The position numbers and the translations under genes are program-made. From assembly GCA_013141015.1 (NCBI GenBank), contig JABFRT010000023.1, forward strand, positions 1 through 64,000: a stretch of 64,000 nt of DNA. The letters run 5' to 3'. The notes below the pieces were generated by a model that had not been told where the DNA came from, made no database searches, and worked only from the letters and a program-made list of their open reading frames with translations. Source of the DNA: Hyphomicrobium sp. Lineage in GTDB: Bacteria > Pseudomonadota > Alphaproteobacteria > Rhizobiales > Hyphomicrobiaceae. Shown in pieces: positions 13,390 through 22,326 of this stretch (its first letter is position 1; every line of letters begins with the position of its first letter).

Positions 13390-13776
13390 TCAGTGATCGG
13401 TTGGCGCAAAGCCCGCGGGTGTAGCCGGCTCAAGGTTCACACTCTCGCCGCAACCGCACGAACTCTTCTGGTTCGGATTGTTGAACACAAATGCCGACGC
13501 GAGCTTGTCGGTCTTGAAGTCCATCTCGGTGCCGAGAAGATACATGACGGCTGCCGGGTCGATCAGCACCACTGCGCCCTTGTCTTCGATGACTTCGTCG
13601 AACTTGCCGACCTCTTCGGCCCAGCTCATCGTGTATTCCATGCCGGCGCAGCCGCCCTTCTTGACGCCGATCTTCAGCCCTTTGACGCCGGGCTTGGCGG
13701 CCATTAGCGCGCTGACACGAGCCGCTGCGGCGTCCGTCAGGGTCATCACTTTGGGCATCATGCGCAGCGACGGCAT
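13390..13776 (-). CDS. sufA: SufA/IscA-type iron-sulfur carrier
   Basis: 128-residue A-type carrier that accepts Fe-S clusters from the SufBCD scaffold and passes them to apo-proteins. The three ligand cysteines are C43 (GGCAGMEY) and C107/C109 (SSCGCGES). The ATG at 13776 is used; a GTG at 13782 with AAGG closer upstream is equally possible and adds two residues. It is the last recognisable SUF gene of the operon, 67 bases after sufT. Confidence 0.9.
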   Translation of the reverse strand: MPSLRMMPKVMTLTDAAAARVSALMAAKPGVKGLKIGVKKGGCAGMEYTMSWAEEVGKFDEVIEDKGAVVLIDPAAVMYLLGTEMDFKTDKLASAFVFNNPNQKSSCGCGESVNLEPATPAGFAPTDH

Positions 13777-13843
13777 TGGCACTCAATCCTTGTTCAACGT
13801 CTCGGCAATATGGGCATTCGCCCGCAATAAAACCAGTGCTGCC

Positions 13844-14287
13844 TCAGAACATGCCAACCGCGAGCTTGGCTTCGTCTGACATGCGGCTCTGGTCCCACGG
13901 CGGATCGAATACAATTTTTACTTTTGTGCCCGCCACGCCCGGCACCGCGTTCACCGCATTCTCGACCCAGATCGGCATTTCGCCGGCAACCGGGCATCCC
14001 GGCGCTGTCAGCGTCATATCAATCGCCACATTGCGGTCGTCGTCGATCTCGACCTTGTAGATCAAGCCCAACTCATAAATGTCGGATGGAATCTCGGGGT
14101 CATGCACCGTCTTCAAGGCGGCGACGATGTCGGTGGTCAGCCGCTCGATTTCTTCCGGCGGCAGCGCGGGCGAAGTGCTGACGCTTGCAGGCGCTGCGTC
14201 AACCGGCGTCTCCGCGGGCGCATCAAGCGCCGCGACCGCCGCCTTGAGCGCTGATGCGGCGTTGCTTGGCTTGTGTGGGTCGTCCAT
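13844..14287 (-). CDS. sufT: SUF-associated MIP18/DUF59 protein
   Basis: 147 residues. The first ~45 are Ala/Pro-rich, followed by a DUF59/MIP18-like domain with the core HDPEIPSDIYELGLIY and the conserved loop TAPGCPVAG containing its functional Cys. SufT-type proteins help Fe-S cluster maturation under heavy cluster demand. The start codon lies 12 bases after the sufS stop with GAGGA overlapping that stop, showing tight operon coupling. Confidence 0.88.
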   Translation of the reverse strand: MDDPHKPSNAASALKAAVAALDAPAETPVDAAPASVSTSPALPPEEIERLTTDIVAALKTVHDPEIPSDIYELGLIYKVEIDDDRNVAIDMTLTAPGCPVAGEMPIWVENAVNAVPGVAGTKVKIVFDPPWDQSRMSDEAKLAVGMF

Positions 14288-14299
14288 TTTTACAAGTCC

Positions 14300-15583
14300 T
14301 CACGCAAACAGATCATGGGCCTTGGTGAGCGCCGTAACAAGCGCATCAACTTCAGCCTTGGTTGAATACATCGCAAACGACGCGCGGCAGGTGGCCGTCA
14401 CGCCGAGCCGTTCCATCAGTGGCTGCGCGCAGTGGTGGCCGGCCCGGATCGCAACACCGGAGCGGTCGATGATGGTTGAGATGTCGTGTGGATGCAGGCC
14501 GTCCATGGTGAATGAGAATATCGCGCCCTTGTTTGGCGCCGTGCCGTACAGCTTCAGCCACGGCAGCGCGGCCAAGCGTTCGCCTGCATAGACCGCGATT
14601 TCAGCTTCATGGCGGGCGATTTTTTCGCGCCCCACCTGCATCATATAGTTCAAGGCGGCGGCAAGACCGATAGCTTCGACAATGGCCGGAGTGCCCGCTT
14701 CGAACTTGTGCGGCGGCTTGTTGTAGGTGATGCGATCAACGGCAACGGTCTCGATCATGTCGCCACCGCCCTCATAAGGCGGCATGGCTTCCAGATGGCG
14801 CTTCTTGGCGTACAGCACGCCAATACCGGTCGGACCATACGTCTTGTGGCCCGTGAACACATAAAAATCGGCATCCAAATCGCGCACATCGACGCCCATG
14901 TGCACGGCCGCCTGGCTGCCATCGACCAACACCGCGATCCCCTTGGCGTGCGCGATGCGGATGATCTCTTTGACCGGATTGACGGTGCCGAGCACATTCG
15001 ACATATGCGTGATGGCGATCATCTTGGTCTTGGAGGTCAGGATTTTATCGAGCTGATCGATCAGCAGTTCACCGCGATCATTGACCGGCAGCCACTTCAA
15101 CACCGCGCCCTTTTTCTCGCGCAGAAAATGCCACGGCACGATGTTGGCGTGGTGCTCCATGATCGAGAGCACGATTTCATCGCCCTCTGCGATCTCGATT
15201 TCGCCCACGCAACGGGCGACCAGATTGATGGCGCTCGTCGCATTGCGCGTGAAAATGATCTCATCCGCACTGCCGGCATTCAAAAACCGGCGCACGGTTT
15301 CGCGCGCGGCCTCAAAGTGATCGGTCGCGACGTTCGACAGATGATGCAGCCCGCGATGCACGTTGGCATATTCGAAGCGATAGGCGTGATCCATCGCTTC
15401 CAGCACTGAGCGCGGCTTTTGCGCGGACGCGCCGCTATCGAGATAGACCAGCGGCTTGCCGTGGACCTCGCGGTAGAGGATAGGGAAGTCGGCGCGGATG
15501 CGCTCTACGTCATAGGCAGCACCCGTCAGCGCGGTGGTTGCCCCGCCGCTGCGGCTTTCCGGATTGCGTGCTTCGCTGCCCAT
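14300..15583 (-). CDS. sufS: SufS-type cysteine desulfurase
   Basis: 427-residue PLP enzyme that releases sulfur from cysteine as a persulfide for the SUF scaffold. The PLP lysine is K247 in TGHKTYGP and the catalytic cysteine is C385 in RAGHHCAQP, the group II arrangement. The ATG at 15583 follows AGAGGA at proper spacing and lies ten bases after the sufD stop. No sufE partner is seen in the window. This is the second cysteine desulfurase in the operon, the first being fused to IscR at 20440-22005. Confidence 0.95.
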   Translation of the reverse strand: MGSEARNPESRSGGATTALTGAAYDVERIRADFPILYREVHGKPLVYLDSGASAQKPRSVLEAMDHAYRFEYANVHRGLHHLSNVATDHFEAARETVRRFLNAGSADEIIFTRNATSAINLVARCVGEIEIAEGDEIVLSIMEHHANIVPWHFLREKKGAVLKWLPVNDRGELLIDQLDKILTSKTKMIAITHMSNVLGTVNPVKEIIRIAHAKGIAVLVDGSQAAVHMGVDVRDLDADFYVFTGHKTYGPTGIGVLYAKKRHLEAMPPYEGGGDMIETVAVDRITYNKPPHKFEAGTPAIVEAIGLAAALNYMMQVGREKIARHEAEIAVYAGERLAALPWLKLYGTAPNKGAIFSFTMDGLHPHDISTIIDRSGVAIRAGHHCAQPLMERLGVTATCRASFAMYSTKAEVDALVTALTKAHDLFA

Positions 15584-15593
15584 ATCGATTCCT

Positions 15594-16931
15594 CTAGCCT
15601 TTCGCCGCGCTAAGCCACGCGTTTGCGGATCGTGACAGCGCCTCACGCAGGCCGTCGTGCTCCACCTTGTCGAGCGCCTCACCGATGAACGACTCAATCA
15701 GCAACGCGCGCGCCTCATTTTCCGGGATCCCGCGCGACATGCAATAGAACAGCAAATCGGCGTCCAATTCCGCTGAGGTTGTGCCGTGGCCGCAAACCAC
15801 GTCGTCGGCATAGATTTCGAGTTCGGGTTTTGAATCAAACTCCGCGTCGGGTGAAAGCATCAGCGCCTGCGCCATCTGCTTGCCGTCGGTCTTCTGTGCG
15901 TCTGGCCGAACGATGATCTTGCCTTGGAACACGCCGCGGCCGCGATCATCGAGCACGCCTTTGAACAGTTCTCGGCTCTCGCACTGCGGCACCGCGTGAT
16001 CGATCACCAGGGTTGTATCGACGTGCTCCGTTCCGCGCACGAGGTACGCGCCCGACAGGTCGAGCTTGCCGCCAACGCCTGCATACACGGCGTTGATCTG
16101 ATTGCGCGCCAGCGCTTGGCCCGACGTGTATTGGAACCCGCGATACGTCGCGTCGCGGCCGAGACTGACGTTCCAGTTGGCGAGATGCACACTTTTGCCG
16201 CTGCCTGCAGCGATCTTGACGTGGGCAAGCGTGGCGCTTTGCCCAACGGTCAGTTCCGTCAGCGCATTGGTCTGGCCGGACGCCGCCGCGCCGTCGAGCA
16301 CCACGTGCGCCTCAATCACCGTCGCAGCCGAGCCGTCACCGGTGGCAATGATATTGCGCACGGAGGTCAGCTGAGCTGCCGCGCCGGCGGTTGCGAAAAC
16401 CATCAGCAAAGGCTTGGCGAGCGTTGCGCCATCCGCGACGCGGACAATCGCGCCGTCCGTCATGAAGGCGGTGTTGAGCGCGATGGTCGCGTCGCCTTCC
16501 GGGCCCGATGTGCGCATCAAGCCCTCGGCAACCTTATCCTGCGCCGCCGTCAACGCGCGCGACAGCGGCTGCACTTCGAGCCCGCGGATCGCCGCGCCGT
16601 CTGACAGTTCAGCGCGGAAGCTGCCGTTCACAAACACGATCCGCGTCGCGTCGAGCCCGGCCAGCCCACCAAGCGCTCCAGCCAGATCCGCCGCCGTCAC
16701 AAGCGCCGCGTCGCTGACAGCCGGCGGCAGTGCGTCTTTAAGATTGACGCGCAGATCGGTGTATTTCCATTCCTCGACGCGGCGGTGCGGCAATCCGAGC
16801 TTGTTGAATGCACCAATAGCCGTGGCGCGCGCGGCCTGCACGGCGGCACTGCCTGGAAGCTTCGCCGCATTGGCTTCGAACGCTTCACTTAAGCTCTGTT
16901 CGGCTTTGGTCTTTGGGATCGCAACGTTCAT
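15594..16931 (-). CDS. sufD: SufD Fe-S assembly scaffold subunit
   Basis: 445 residues. SufD forms the SufB-SufC2-SufD scaffold and is paralogous to SufB. The C-terminal part shows the family core, including LSPDAEFDSKPELEIYADDV and CGHGTTSAELD with the conserved Cys-His. The ATG at 16931 starts one base after the sufC TGA, so the two are translationally coupled; the longer frame to 17021 would overlap sufC. Confidence 0.93.
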   Translation of the reverse strand: MNVAIPKTKAEQSLSEAFEANAAKLPGSAAVQAARATAIGAFNKLGLPHRRVEEWKYTDLRVNLKDALPPAVSDAALVTAADLAGALGGLAGLDATRIVFVNGSFRAELSDGAAIRGLEVQPLSRALTAAQDKVAEGLMRTSGPEGDATIALNTAFMTDGAIVRVADGATLAKPLLMVFATAGAAAQLTSVRNIIATGDGSAATVIEAHVVLDGAAASGQTNALTELTVGQSATLAHVKIAAGSGKSVHLANWNVSLGRDATYRGFQYTSGQALARNQINAVYAGVGGKLDLSGAYLVRGTEHVDTTLVIDHAVPQCESRELFKGVLDDRGRGVFQGKIIVRPDAQKTDGKQMAQALMLSPDAEFDSKPELEIYADDVVCGHGTTSAELDADLLFYCMSRGIPENEARALLIESFIGEALDKVEHDGLREALSRSANAWLSAAKG

Positions 16932-16932
16932 C

Positions 16933-17688
16933 TCAAGCCGCCTTGCCGGTGTAGCCGGCGTAACCGGACTTTTCGAGTTCAAGCGCCAATTCCTTGCCGC
17001 CCGTCTTCTGGATACGTCCATCAGCCAGCACGTGGACCTTATCGGGCACGATATGATTGAGGAGACGCTGATAATGGGTGATGACCAGTGTTGCGCGATC
17101 CGGTGAGCGCAGCGCGTTGACGCCGTCGGACACGATTTTCAGCGCGTCGATATCGAGACCGCTGTCGGTTTCATCGAGCACGCACAGCGTTGGCTCAAGC
17201 ATCGCCATCTGCAAAATCTCAGAGCGCTTCTTTTCGCCGCCCGAGAACCCGACGTTGACCGGACGCTTCAACATCTCAAAATCGATATTGAGTTTGGCCG
17301 CCTGTTCCTTGACGTACTTCATGAAGCCGGGCGTCGTCATTTCATCCTGGCCGCGCTTCTTGCGGACCGCGTTGACGGCGGTGCGCAGGAACGTCAGGCC
17401 AGCAACGCCCGGAATTTCCATCGGATATTGGAACGCCAGGAACACGCCCTTGGCGGCGCGCTCATCGGGCGCCATTTCGAGAATACTCTCGCCATTCCAG
17501 AGGATATCGCCCTCGGTCACCTCGTAGCCGTCGCGGCCGGCAATCACATACGACAGCGTCGATTTTCCAGAGCCGTTCGGCCCCATGATCGCGTGCACTT
17601 CACCCTTGGGCACGGTGAGCGTAAGCCCCTTGAGGATCTGCTTATCCTCGTCCGCCAACTTCACGTGCAGGTTCTTGATTTCGAGCAT
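16933..17688 (-). CDS. sufC: SufC ATPase of the Fe-S assembly complex
   Basis: 251-residue ABC-type ATPase that drives conformational change of the SufBCD scaffold; it is cytosolic and not a transporter. Walker A GPNGSGKS (36-43), Q-loop FQYP (Q88), signature FSGGEKKR (148-155) and Walker [13 protein letters not shown] (168-179) are all present. It follows the cupin-like gene by 30 bases and is coupled to sufD. Confidence 0.96.
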
Positions 17689-17718: not shown

Positions 17719-18495
17719 TTAGGGGGCCGAGGATTTCAGTTTTTCTGCGCGCTCTTTTTCGAAGTTGCCCCTGAGGGCCTTTTCTGCTGCAAGGATTTTG
17801 TCAACGGCACTATCGACTGAATCAGCGTCGCTTTGCCGAATTCTCTGACCATTGAAATAGATGAAACCCTGCTCATCACTGACGAGTACATATTCAAGTT
17901 CACGATAGTACATCGCGACCAGCCGCCCGTCGTAGCTGTAACCTTCCCAATTCATCGTCGGCCGTTTCCAGGACCTTTCGATATACGCGCTCACAATCTG
18001 CTGCGCTCTATCTGTTCGCTCTTTGAACCTCAAAATGCTCAGCGATCGAAAAACCAGGATCTTGAGTTCTATGTTTCCCGTATTTACAATCTGGGCTTGG
18101 GTTGCAGCCGCCAGAGGCTTGATGAAAAAGCTGTGCTCTTTCAGAGAGTGATGTTCAGTTGGAAGAATGAACTGGCCAGAGCCAGTCAACACGAACCCGG
18201 TGTACTCTTCGAAGAACCGTACAGGACACGAACGTCCCACTGGCACAACAAAGATATAGCTCCCCACGTCACCCGGGTTGGTGACGCCAGCGGTGTTCAA
18301 GGAAACCTCGCCGAATTTCGACCCGTCGATCAGGGGAAGAAGGCGGACCGATTCCATTTCAATGACTACGCTTTTAAGGTCATTCGGTATGATCTTTTTC
18401 ATTTCAGCAATCGTGGGCGCGGCATAGAAGTTTACTAAGACCGCAGCAAGCACAGCAATGAGGCCCAAAGAAAACACTCTACGGAAATCAATCAC
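17719..18495 (-). CDS. Cupin-like membrane-anchored protein inserted in the suf operon
   Basis: 258 residues. An N-terminal hydrophobic segment (about 8-28) looks like a signal anchor or signal peptide, so the protein is probably periplasmic. Residues ~95-150 resemble a cupin barrel: FVLTGSGQFILP, then EHSFFIKP and IVNTGNIELKILVF. The metal-binding histidine of the second cupin motif is replaced by Gln, so it may not be an enzyme. The C-terminus is a charged helix. The GTG start overlaps the TGA of the last duplicated sufB end, whose GGAAGGGAG supplies the ribosome-binding site. Its G+C is visibly lower than the suf genes around it, and it is not part of the normal SUF set. Function is unknown. 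Confidence 0.7.
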   Translation of the reverse strand: MIDFRRVFSLGLIAVLAAVLVNFYAAPTIAEMKKIIPNDLKSVVIEMESVRLLPLIDGSKFGEVSLNTAGVTNPGDVGSYIFVVPVGRSCPVRFFEEYTGFVLTGSGQFILPTEHHSLKEHSFFIKPLAAATQAQIVNTGNIELKILVFRSLSILRFKERTDRAQQIVSAYIERSWKRPTMNWEGYSYDGRLVAMYYRELEYVLVSDEQGFIYFNGQRIRQSDADSVDSAVDKILAAEKALRGNFEKERAEKLKSSAP

Positions 18496-18553
18496 CCAAC
18501 GCTCCCTTCCAAACTAATCCCGATCAGCTTCTGCGTTTCCGCCATGAACCAGC

Positions 18554-18684
18554 CACCCGTCATCCCGGATGCGACGCAGCATCCTTCATGATGCGGCGCT
18601 GATCCGGGATCTTCGGCGTGCGCGTAAGATCCCGTGTCTGCGGCGCACCGTAAGAACGCTGCACCGCGCACGGGATGACGGGTG
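18554..18684. repeat. Intergenic palindromic element, copy 1
   Basis: Bounded by 14-bp perfect inverted ends, CACCCGTCATCCCG at 18554-18567 and CGGGATGACGGGTG at 18671-18684, with further internal dyads around GGATGCG and GGGATC. It codes for nothing convincing. It resembles extragenic palindromic repeats that occur in many copies in Rhizobiales genomes. Confidence 0.8.
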
Positions 18685-18768
18685 TTCCCGTGAGCGGACA
18701 GATGCATCACCCCACGCTCCCTTCCAAACTAATCCCAATCAGCTGCGGCACCTCCGCCATGGACCAGC

Positions 18769-18899
18769 CACCCGTCATCCCGGATGCGACGCAGCATCCT
18801 TCATGATGCGGCGCTGATCCGGGATCTTCGGCGTGCGCGTAAGATCCCGTGTCTGCGGCGCACCGTAAGAACGCTGCACCGCGCACGGGATGACGGGTG
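18769..18899. repeat. Intergenic palindromic element, copy 2
   Basis: Same element as at 18554-18684, offset by exactly 215 bases, with the same 14-bp inverted ends and essentially the same interior. Confidence 0.8.
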
Positions 18900-18921
18900 T
18901 TCCCGTGAGCGGACAGATGCA

Positions 18922-20391
18922 TCACCCAACGCTCCCTTCCAAACTAATCCCGATCAGCTTCTGCGTTTCCGCCATGAATTCCATCGGCAAGTGCTGCAGC
19001 ACGTCGCGCACGAAGCCGTTGACGACCAGCGCTATCGCTTCTTCCTTCGAAAGCCCGCGCTGCTGGCAATAGAACAACATGTCGTCAGAGATTTTCGAGG
19101 TTGTCGCTTCATGTTCGAAATGCGCCGACGCGTTCTTGGCTTCGATGTAGGGCACGGTATGCGCGCCGCACTTGTCGCCAATCAGGAGTGAATCGCAGTT
19201 CGTGAAATTGCGCACGCCGGTCGCCTTGCGATGCGCCGAAACAAGCCCGCGATAGGTATTCTGCGAATGCCCGGCTGCGATGCCTTTCGAGATAATCCGG
19301 CTCGACGAATTCTTGCCGAGATGGATCATCTTGGTGCCGCTATCGACCTGCTGATAGCCGTTAGACACAGCAATCGAATAGAATTCGCCGCGTGAATAAT
19401 CGCCGCGCAGAATGCAGCTCGGATATTTCCAGGTGATGGCCGAGCCGGTCTCAACCTGCGTCCACGAAATCTTCGAGTGATGGCCACGGCAATCGCCGCG
19501 CTTGGTGACGAAGTTATAAATGCCACCCTTGCCGTTCTTGTCGCCGGGATACCAGTTCTGCACGGTCGAGTATTTGATTTCAGCATCATCCATCGCCACG
19601 AGTTCGACGACGGCTGCGTGCAGCTGATGTTCGTCGCGCATCGGCGCCGTGCAGCCTTCGAGGTACGACACGTAAGCGCCGCGCTCAGCGATAATGAGCG
19701 TGCGTTCGAACTGGCCGGTGTTCTTTTCGTTGATGCGGAAATAGGTCGACAATTCCATCGGGCAGCGCACGCCCTCGGGGATGTAGACGAACGATCCGTC
19801 GGAAAACACCGCCGCATTCAGCGCCGCATAGTAGTTATCGGATTGCGGCACGACGGAACCCAGATACTTCTGCACAAGCTCTGGGTGCTCACGCACCGCT
19901 TCCGAAAACGAGCAGAAGATCACGCCGGCTTTTTTCAGCTCTTCCTTGAAGGTCGTGACAACCGACACGCTGTCGAACACGGCGTCAACCGCAACGCGCG
20001 AGGACGTAACGCCCGCGAGGATTTCCTGCTCTTTCAGCGGAATGCCGAGCTTCTTGTAGGTTTCCAGCAATTGCGGATCGACCTCGGCGAGGCTCGATGG
20101 GCCAGCCGTCGATTTCGGCGCCGAGTAGTAATACTGATCCTGGAAATCGATTTTCGGATAGTGAACCTTGGCCCACGCCGGTTCCGTCATCGCCTGCCAG
20201 CGCTGGAACGCGTCGAGCCGCCATTCGAGCAGCCACGCCGGCTCGTTCTTTTGCGCCGAGATATAACGCACGGTCGATTCATCCAAGCCCTTCGGCGCTT
20301 TCACGCTGTCGATCTTGGTCTCAAACCCGTACTTGTATTGGTCGACGTCAATCTGGCGGACCTGATCGATCGTCTCCTTAACGGCTGCCAT
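18922..20391 (-). CDS. sufB: SufB Fe-S assembly scaffold subunit
   Basis: 489 residues. SufB is the main scaffold on which the nascent Fe-S cluster is built with SufC and SufD. Typical segments are [39 protein letters not shown] (the functional Cys) and [20 protein letters not shown] (Glu/His region). The ATG at 20391 is preceded by GGAGACG; the open frame to 20418 adds nine unlikely residues. The last ~17 codons are duplicated twice just downstream. Confidence 0.95.
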
Positions 20392-20439
20392 CGTACTTCG
20401 TCTCCAAACGTGCGCCACGCGGGCGGTAATAACTGATCG

Positions 20440-22005
20440 TCATGCGGCCAAAGCCGCGTTGCCAGAGATTTGCTTCCAGGCGGCGGCAAATGCGGCGATG
20501 TCGTCTTGCGTCGTATCGGGTCCAAGGCTGACGCGGATCATCCCGGCTGCAACGTCACGCTCCAGGCCCATCGCCTCCGCCACGTGGCTGACACCAACTT
20601 TGCCGGACGAACATGCAGACCCGGCACTGACCGCGAAGCCAGCCAGATCAAGGCGGATGACCAGCGTTTCAGCCAACTTCCCGGGCAGTGTCAGCGTGGC
20701 GGTGTTGCACAAACGCGGTGCGGAACCGGCGATAACGACGGTCGCTGGAACGGCGTCACACACATCCCGCTCCAATTGATCGCGCAGACCAGCGATGCGC
20801 GGCGCATCCGCAAGCGCGGCCAGAGCCACTTTTGCGGCCGCACCAAAGCCGGCGATGCCAGCGAGATTTTCAGTGCCCGCACGCCGCCGGCGTTCCTGGC
20901 CGCCACCACGGATCAGCGGCGCCAGATCGTAGTGATCGCGAATAATCAGCGCGCCGATGCCCTTTGGTCCGCCGAGCTTATGTGCCGACAAACTCATCGT
21001 ATCGGCGTCGAGACCTGCGAAATCGATGGCGATGCGGCCCGGCGCCTGCACTGCGTCTGTGTGAACGCGAAGCCCGTGCTCGCGCGCAAACGCGGTCACA
21101 GCGGCCACATCTTGAATGACGCCCGTTTCGTTGTTGGCCAATTGCAGGGCGATCAAAGCCCGGCCAACAGGCGCGCCGGACAAAACGCGTGCGGCGATCT
21201 GTTCGGCCAGCACGCGGCCATCACGGGCGACGGGCACCATGATAACCTCGGCACCATTGGCGCGCGCCGGTGCCAGGATCGAATCATGTTCGACGCCCGA
21301 CACGAAAATCGTGTCCCACGGCTGCGCCATCACCCAGGCATTGCTTTCCGTCGCGCCGCTGGTGAACACCACTTCAGACGGCTTGGCGTTGACCAGACGA
21401 GCCACCTGTTCGCGCGCGGCTTCAATCACCCCTCGCGCTCGTCGCCCCTCGCTGTGCACCGACGACGGATTGCCATCGACATCGAGCGCGGCGATCATTG
21501 CGGCTTTGGCTTCGCCGCGCAGCGGCGCGGTGGCGTTATGGTCAAGATACACCCGTCGCAGCCCGGCACTTGGAGCGGCCTGAGCCCTGGCCATGCCAGC
21601 AAGTGTGCCGCCGACAACATCCGCCAGACTAACGGACGCAAAAAACGCGCTCGTCACCGCGCCGAGACGCTGCCATAGCCCATGCGTCAAACACGGCGCA
21701 TCCCGCAGGCACGACGCCTCGCCATTCGCACACCGCGTAAAGTGCGTATCTTCCTCAGCCGCGGCCATAACGTCGGCGATGGAAATTTCGGCAGCCGGAC
21801 GCGCCAAGCGGTAGCCACCGGACCGGCCGCGCGCACTTTCAACCAGCCCAGCGCGGCGCAGCCCTACAAAAATCTGTTCGAGATAAGCGAGGGGAAGCGC
21901 TTGGCGTTCAGCGATTTGCGACAATGGAACGGTCAGCGCATCGCTTTGCCCAGCGATATCCGCCATAGCCGTGACCGCATACCGCCCTTTGGTCGTCAGT
22001 TCCAC
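20440..22005 (-). CDS. IscR (Rrf2) regulator fused to IscS/NifS-type cysteine desulfurase
   Basis: 521 residues in one frame. Residues 1-135 form an Rrf2/IscR winged-helix regulator starting MELTTKGRYAVTAM. It has three candidate cluster cysteines C92, C99 and C105 plus H108 in PCLTHGLW (Cys spacing 6 and 5, one more than the 5/5 of E. coli IscR). A short linker (about 131-149) joins a group I cysteine desulfurase: YLDHNATAP (153-161), PLP lysine K343 in SAHKLGGPKG, RRAGTEN (375-380), catalytic C465 in GSACSSGK. The GTG at 22005 follows CGGAG. An internal ATG at 21594 could start a free desulfurase but has no clear ribosome-binding site. It leads the suf operon and lies 48 bases before sufB. 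Confidence 0.88.
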   Translation of the reverse strand: MELTTKGRYAVTAMADIAGQSDALTVPLSQIAERQALPLAYLEQIFVGLRRAGLVESARGRSGGYRLARPAAEISIADVMAAAEEDTHFTRCANGEASCLRDAPCLTHGLWQRLGAVTSAFFASVSLADVVGGTLAGMARAQAAPSAGLRRVYLDHNATAPLRGEAKAAMIAALDVDGNPSSVHSEGRRARGVIEAAREQVARLVNAKPSEVVFTSGATESNAWVMAQPWDTIFVSGVEHDSILAPARANGAEVIMVPVARDGRVLAEQIAARVLSGAPVGRALIALQLANNETGVIQDVAAVTAFAREHGLRVHTDAVQAPGRIAIDFAGLDADTMSLSAHKLGGPKGIGALIIRDHYDLAPLIRGGGQERRRRAGTENLAGIAGFGAAAKVALAALADAPRIAGLRDQLERDVCDAVPATVVIAGSAPRLCNTATLTLPGKLAETLVIRLDLAGFAVSAGSACSSGKVGVSHVAEAMGLERDVAAGMIRVSLGPDTTQDDIAAFAAAWKQISGNAALAA

Positions 22006-22326
22006 GTTGCAACACTCCGGACTGGCGCCGCCCCAAGTGGCGACGAAATCCTTGCCGACATCATCCAAGGCTTGCTTTTGCCACCCCGGACTGTGCTAAG
22101 AGACCGGCCCCGGCAGGTTGCGCGGCTTTAGCACGCCCGGCCTGCCTTTTGAACAGTTCTAAACTGTTACGACTATGGAAATCCTGAGCGGCCACGTCAA
22201 GGTTTAAATCGACCCGCATACGCTGATGTGATGGCCCGTGAGGCCGCGACCCGAGACTGAACACCGCGGCCTGCGCACAACCACCGCGCGGCCCGCGCAC
22301 AACCCAAGTTGCCGAGACCCAAACCG
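22006..22326. other. Divergent promoter region of the suf operon and a hydrolase gene
   Basis: 321 bases between the iscR-iscS start and the plus-strand hydrolase start. It contains the candidate Irr box at 22147-22163 and an overlapping dyad AACAGTT CTA AACTGTT at 22152-22168. No gene is seen. Confidence 0.6.
22147..22163. promoter_or_regulatory. Candidate Irr box (ICE motif) upstream of suf operon
   Basis: TTTTGAACAGTTCTAAA differs by one base from the palindromic pattern TTTAGAA-N3-TTCTAAA associated with Irr, the haem-linked iron regulator of Rhizobiales. It lies about 140 bases upstream of the iscR-iscS start. An overlapping dyad at 22152-22168 could instead be the autoregulatory IscR site. 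suf operons are reported Irr targets in this order; assignment here is inference. Confidence 0.5.

Follow-up and report, generated by a model that had tools for sequence, protein, structure and literature searches.

On the minus strand of the DNA analysed here (a 64,000-nucleotide stretch of a Hyphomicrobium genome, referred to below as the window), positions 20440..22005 translate from a GTG start as a single frame of 521 residues with no internal stop. The gene fuses an IscR-type Rrf2 regulator to a NifS/IscS-like cysteine desulfurase. The regulator domain (residues 1-131; 21613..22005, minus strand) includes a winged helix-turn-helix and the residues C92, C99, C105 and H108. A linker (residues 132-151; 21553..21612, minus strand) joins it to a desulfurase domain of group I (residues 152-521; 20443..21552, minus strand) carrying H240, D317, Q320, K343 and C465. 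Pfam recognises both parts: Rrf2 at residues 3-131 (E 8.6e-36; 123.5 bits, which passes the cut-off of 30) and Aminotran_5 at residues 152-506 (E 5.5e-55; 187 bits). The first-pass annotation of the window had described one uninterrupted frame holding a full Rrf2/IscR domain and a full group I desulfurase, and both the frame and the two domains are as described.

The residues singled out in that annotation as cluster ligands (C92, C99, C105 and H108) and as active-site residues (K343 and C465) are all present and, in our alignment, are identical in all 22 members of the genus, as are H240, D317 and Q320. We take K343 to be the PLP lysine and C465 the catalytic cysteine; the roles of H240, D317 and Q320 are likewise assumed from NifS/IscS enzymes. 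For ten close pairs of genus members dN is much lower than dS in each of the two domains. E43 and Q44 are also identical in 22/22 members, while position 40 has Ala in 15 members and Ser in the other seven; Ser40, Glu43 and Gln44 are given as the base-reading residues of E. coli IscR in PMC9973013. Both the IscR half and the desulfurase half are apparently intact and look functional, and the residues retained by the former suggest that it binds DNA and a cluster.

With the NCBIfam models the fusion scores above the cut-off of rrf2_super (127.6 bits against 73.3). The best-scoring regulator model for the front half is IscR, with 151.6 bits for the fusion and 155.3 for the Rrf2 domain alone. Since this is below the equivalog cut-off of 207.55, the front half is classed as IscR-type and not as an IscR equivalog. 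The best models for the back half are NifS (314 bits, cut-off 530.75) and IscS (209.9 bits, cut-off 643.2), both scores lying below cut-off; the SufS model gives 98 bits. In the one unfused relative tested (L027), IscR reaches 159.8 bits and the desulfurase 331.1 (NifS) and 214.8 (IscS), again below the equivalog cut-offs, so that such scores seem to come with the group as a whole, not with the fusion. The spacing of the cluster cysteines had been put forward as a peculiarity (C-x6-C, different from classic IscR). We rejected it as an unusual feature because it is ordinary for the group: the C92-C99 spacing is x6 in 21 of the 22 fusions and x7 in the other, and spacings of x6 to x9 are common among unfused family members. 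The chain in PDB 4hf0, which we take to be E. coli IscR, has C-x5-C spacing, with Ala at the ligand sites.

Downstream of the fusion, all on the same strand, follow sufB (18922..20418; NF008773, 900 bits), sufC (16933..17688; TIGR01978, 350 bits), sufD (15594..17021; TIGR01981, 255 bits), sufS, encoding a second desulfurase, of group II (14300..15697; TIGR01979, 588 bits), a gene for a sufT-like SUF-associated protein (13844..14287; TIGR02945, 151 bits) and one for a sufA-like A-type carrier (13390..13782; TIGR01997, 133.7 bits, below the cut-off of 136.2). The limits given for sufD and sufS are those of the longest open frames, and the true start of sufD probably lies further in. As the first-pass annotation had proposed, the fusion stands at the head of a suf operon, and that operon retains SufS as a separate desulfurase. 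Across the genus, sufB is next on the same strand in 22/22 members, and 21 have a divergent hydrolase gene upstream, the remaining locus (L021) being too short to show it. Two further features of this region are an open frame of 258 residues with a hydrophobic start between sufB and sufC (17719-18495, minus strand), which has no NCBIfam or Pfam match, and a tandem repeat just downstream of sufB (18491-18978; a 215-base unit in 2.3 copies with 94% matches).

Used as a query against the window's genome, the fusion gives three desulfurase-type matches: itself, SufS and a family 2A encapsulin cargo cysteine desulfurase. The last is encoded on contig C44 of the same genome (locus L002, 298-2565; 755 aa; NF041166, 855 bits). 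One other Rrf2 protein exceeds the Pfam cut-off and is closest to NsrR but below the NsrR model cut-off. These searches thus found no IscR-type regulator and no NifS/IscS-type desulfurase in this genome other than the fusion. SufE is present in 20/22 genus genomes. The NifU_N/IscU model (PF01592) has no match in the window's genome; elsewhere in the genus it gives matches of about 21-25 bits in 12/22 genomes, eight of them above the cut-off of 22. The setting may therefore not be purely SUF, and we would describe it as SUF-like. The weak NifU_N/IscU-like proteins include those at L129 (1330-1776, minus strand; 148 aa) and L130 (1408-1872, minus strand; 154 aa).

Two elements occur upstream of the fused gene in all 22 genus members. 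One (22174..22202, minus strand) is promoter-like, CCTTGAC-N8-TCRGGATTT-N-CATA; it begins 170 to 241 nt ahead of the start and may contain an IscR operator lying over the -35/-10 region. The other, 2 to 13 nt after it, is a palindrome that in the window reads TTTAGAACTGTTCAAAA (22147..22163, minus strand) and resembles what we take to be the Irr-box (ICE) consensus. They are thus candidate IscR and Irr sites. Irr boxes near alphaproteobacterial promoters are described in PMC3413700. Eight unfused relatives from the family whose loci include enough upstream DNA were scanned (L027-L033 and L040): a similar first element is present in seven (it is absent in L033), and all eight have the palindrome, at 1 to 3 mismatches. 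In most of the more distant loci that were scanned both elements are missing. The presence of the same elements in unfused relatives suggests that the promoter layout probably predates the fusion. Directly ahead of the ribosome-binding site, the leader may also form a conserved GC-rich hairpin (22019..22051, minus strand). Its 12 predicted pairs were followed in 13 sequences (13/22 leaders), where one pair has a double change and two pairs are broken (in 2 and 3 sequences); covariation is weak. The start of the fused gene that follows is GTG in 21/22 members and TTG in one.

The family search covered 103 genomes including the window's own: 22 genus members and 81 genomes of other genera. All 22 genus genomes match the query in one open frame over the full or nearly full length (two matches begin at query residue 12 or 13), with 63-75% identity to the window's protein. 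Reading locus by locus gives a stop-free fused frame in every one, four of these genomes being single-contig. The first-pass annotation had recommended a check of related genomes for the same fusion and had warned of a missed stop or a sequencing frameshift; the check finds the fusion throughout the genus, which excludes both kinds of error for the window. In addition, the other frames of six members that we inspected contain no recognisable IscR tail. One distant apparent fusion, described below, does resemble a single-base frameshift, but given the 22 genus genomes we regard the chance that a sequencing or assembly error made the fusion as negligible. The gene tree allows, without forcing, a single origin within the genus, with L010 and L025 in an unresolved fork.

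In the other genera of the family the two genes, where they could be compared, are separate. With a threshold of E <= 1e-25 for an IscR match, 76 of the 81 genomes from these genera matched. Of the 76, 73 have the desulfurase on the contig and strand that carry iscR, and none of the 73 is fused; the other three are not comparable (genes on different contigs or no match). Relative to iscR, iscS is in the +2 frame in 67 of the 73 pairs, in the +1 frame in five and in the same frame in one (G071). We read 18 of the 67 +2 junctions, those of L027-L033 and L140-L150: stop and start overlap by 4 nt in 16 and by 1 nt in two. All six remaining pairs were read, G071 included, and in each a stop ends iscR and the iscS start follows 4 to 70 nt on. 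Three junctions outside this set of 73 pairs (L040, L059 and L066) also have the 4-nt overlap. L040, which is unfused, has the same sequence there as L029, and its desulfurase is the same as that in G038, from another genus of the family. As the junctions of relatives are mostly overlapping and in the +2 frame, the fusion probably arose from a small indel that joined the frames at such an iscR/iscS junction.

We also searched for fusions more widely, in samples of the order (397 genomes, seven of them genus members), the class (385) and the phylum (398), the last two each including only the window's own genus member. All seven genus members in the order sample are fused. Among the best ~150 matches listed per sample, with up to three candidates scored per genome, every non-genus match that starts at residue 1 or 2 of the IscR domain and continues through the desulfurase contains at least one stop; weakly similar fusions could be missed at this depth. 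Three listed matches are stop-free and start inside the IscR domain (G196, G391 and G907, at query residues 101, 113 and 118). In the upstream DNA taken, two of them show no IscR match, while in G907 iscR is a gene of its own that overlaps the next by 4 nt. From 576 relatives 80 loci were kept, comprising 54 separate pairs, 25 loci with no detectable Rrf2 partner nearby and one frameshifted case. This last is the distant apparent fusion (L052, 5001-6572, in a Hyphomonadaceae MAG), which we rejected as a second example: a normal IscR tail and stop are present in another frame, followed by ATGATG, so that a single-base frameshift is likely.

The linker is the variable part of the protein. It has eight lengths across the genus (15, 20, 21, 22, 23, 24, 25 and 30 residues), implying at least seven length changes, every one of which preserved the frame. 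Mean identity in the genus is 0.30 for the linker, whereas the IscR half reaches 0.75 and the desulfurase half 0.71; the alignment of the 22 fusions shows no motif common to every linker. The frame of the linker is maintained while its sequence drifts. In-frame start codons are scattered over 19/22 linker regions; in the other three (L005, L015 and L023) the stretch from residue 126 up to residue 12 of the desulfurase contains no ATG, GTG or TTG. None of the internal starts is conserved among the 22 linker regions, and a Shine-Dalgarno-like sequence precedes one candidate start, in one of the 22 genomes. The internal ATG at 21594, which the first-pass annotation had named as a possible start for a second protein, does exist (it encodes Met138), but it is not conserved and no Shine-Dalgarno-like sequence occurs in the stretch scanned. 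This distribution makes it very probable that the desulfurase is borne on the fusion in L005, L015 and L023, and likely that it is so in all members.

A structure predicted using 22 sequences (mean pLDDT 82.3, pTM 0.68) has both domains folded. The pLDDT falls below 50 at residues 135-148, in the linker, and also at 89-91, 94-96, 365-372 and 463-470, the last of these being around the catalytic Cys; with a pTM of 0.68 the model was left out of any reading of domain orientation. A linker of such low confidence, with start codons in so many members, might be taken to indicate that cleavage or internal initiation yields separate IscR and IscS in the cell. We consider this improbable in view of the unconserved start codons, the three members that have none, the single Shine-Dalgarno-like sequence and the absence from the alignment of any linker motif that all members share. 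We found no fusion-specific residues, and the variable linker and its low-confidence model give no sign of a dedicated interface between the halves.

Overall, we think it quite likely that the product is a single bifunctional chain in which an IscR-type autorepressor and the NifS/IscS-like desulfurase of the operon are made in a 1:1 ratio. The front half would sense the supply of Fe-S clusters and, as a repressor, control the operon that encodes it; the back half would mobilise sulfur, and a flexible tether would link the two. Separate expression of sensor and desulfurase would not be possible from one chain, and with 1:1 synthesis autorepression would set both together. In E. coli, RyhB uncouples iscR from the rest by removing the part of the mRNA that lies behind it (PMC11475020); at the protein level, uncoupling of this type would be impossible for the fusion. 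If both halves work as dimers, each repressor dimer would carry two desulfurase protomers. SufS with SufE would be left to serve the SufBCD scaffold, and the fused desulfurase would most likely serve general sulfur delivery and cluster supply. The simplest effect of the fusion would be the fixed 1:1 ratio, with sensor and enzyme sharing one fate.

The bifunctional chain must be weighed against an explanation that claims no benefit for it, namely that a frame-joining indel at the overlapping junction was simply kept. Such a joining would do no harm, since each domain would fold on its own and the two were translated in step beforehand, and it would be retained because reversal needs a new start site. 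The mostly overlapping gene pair of the relatives, the drifting linker and a promoter layout similar to the one in unfused relatives are all consistent with this, and we give it a little less than an even chance. By sequence it is indistinguishable from the 1:1 bifunctional reading, and a neutral origin is compatible with later use.

A further proposal, a form of which the first-pass annotation had put forward and which may hold on top of the bifunctional 1:1 chain, is that the tethered desulfurase passes persulfide to the IscR half or physically modulates it, so that repression also reads desulfurase activity. A desulfurase is a source of sulfur only; cluster assembly also needs iron and normally a scaffold, and these would still be required. 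This, the unconserved linker modelled at low confidence and our failure to find fusion-specific residues make functional coupling rather unlikely, even though the fusion has been kept in 22/22 genomes at the identities given above and precedents exist. PMC6522883 gives CysK the role 'control of CymR activity' and cites Tanous 2008 for the CymR-CysK complex, a case of an Rrf2 regulator controlled by a PLP enzyme, and PMC8931425 describes a natural desulfurase-rhodanese fusion that is bifunctional in vitro. We are similarly doubtful that the chain forms a one-piece sensor of sulfur flux, in which the desulfurase would load or modulate the IscR half in cis and repression would report local sulfur mobilisation beside, or instead of, global cluster demand.

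In the open-access papers searched we found no description of a fusion of IscR, or of any Rrf2 protein, to a cysteine desulfurase. The domains and their neighbours are known; it is their joining, fixed in one genus, that we found described nowhere in those papers. If the bifunctional reading is correct, a genus-wide fusion would hold sensor and sulfur donor at one ratio and take away their separate control. In the usual account, IscR feedback operates by competition for clusters with free apo-proteins; the fusion is a ready-made test of whether IscR must be independent of the cluster machinery, and raises the question of contact between IscR and desulfurase in other bacteria. Coupling in cis, if true, would make repression of the operon track local sulfur mobilisation. 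The fusion is also a case in which an overlapping gene pair has probably been turned into one protein.

The fusion has the same components as IscR and IscS of E. coli: a winged helix of the Rrf2 type accompanied by three Cys and one His, and a PLP desulfurase with a catalytic Cys. In E. coli, however, these are separate proteins, the spacing is C-x5-C and the isc operon includes IscU, whereas here there is just a weak IscU-like protein in some genus members. Another parallel is the alphaproteobacterial isc-suf operon of Caulobacter and Rhodobacter, which according to PMC11475020 and PMC4618611 is headed by separate iscR and iscS genes. Gene order, domain families and the suf genes behind are alike, but two genes and two proteins there correspond to one here. 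The CymR-CysK pair of Bacillus (PMC6522883) likewise associates an Rrf2 regulator with a PLP enzyme of sulfur metabolism. It consists of separate proteins, and CysK makes cysteine; for the fusion it provides an analogy only. The desulfurase-rhodanese protein of Pseudorhodoferax (PMC8931425) is, like the present one, a naturally fused protein in which a cysteine desulfurase is combined with a second domain; its partner is a sulfurtransferase, whereas in the fusion described here it is a transcription regulator.
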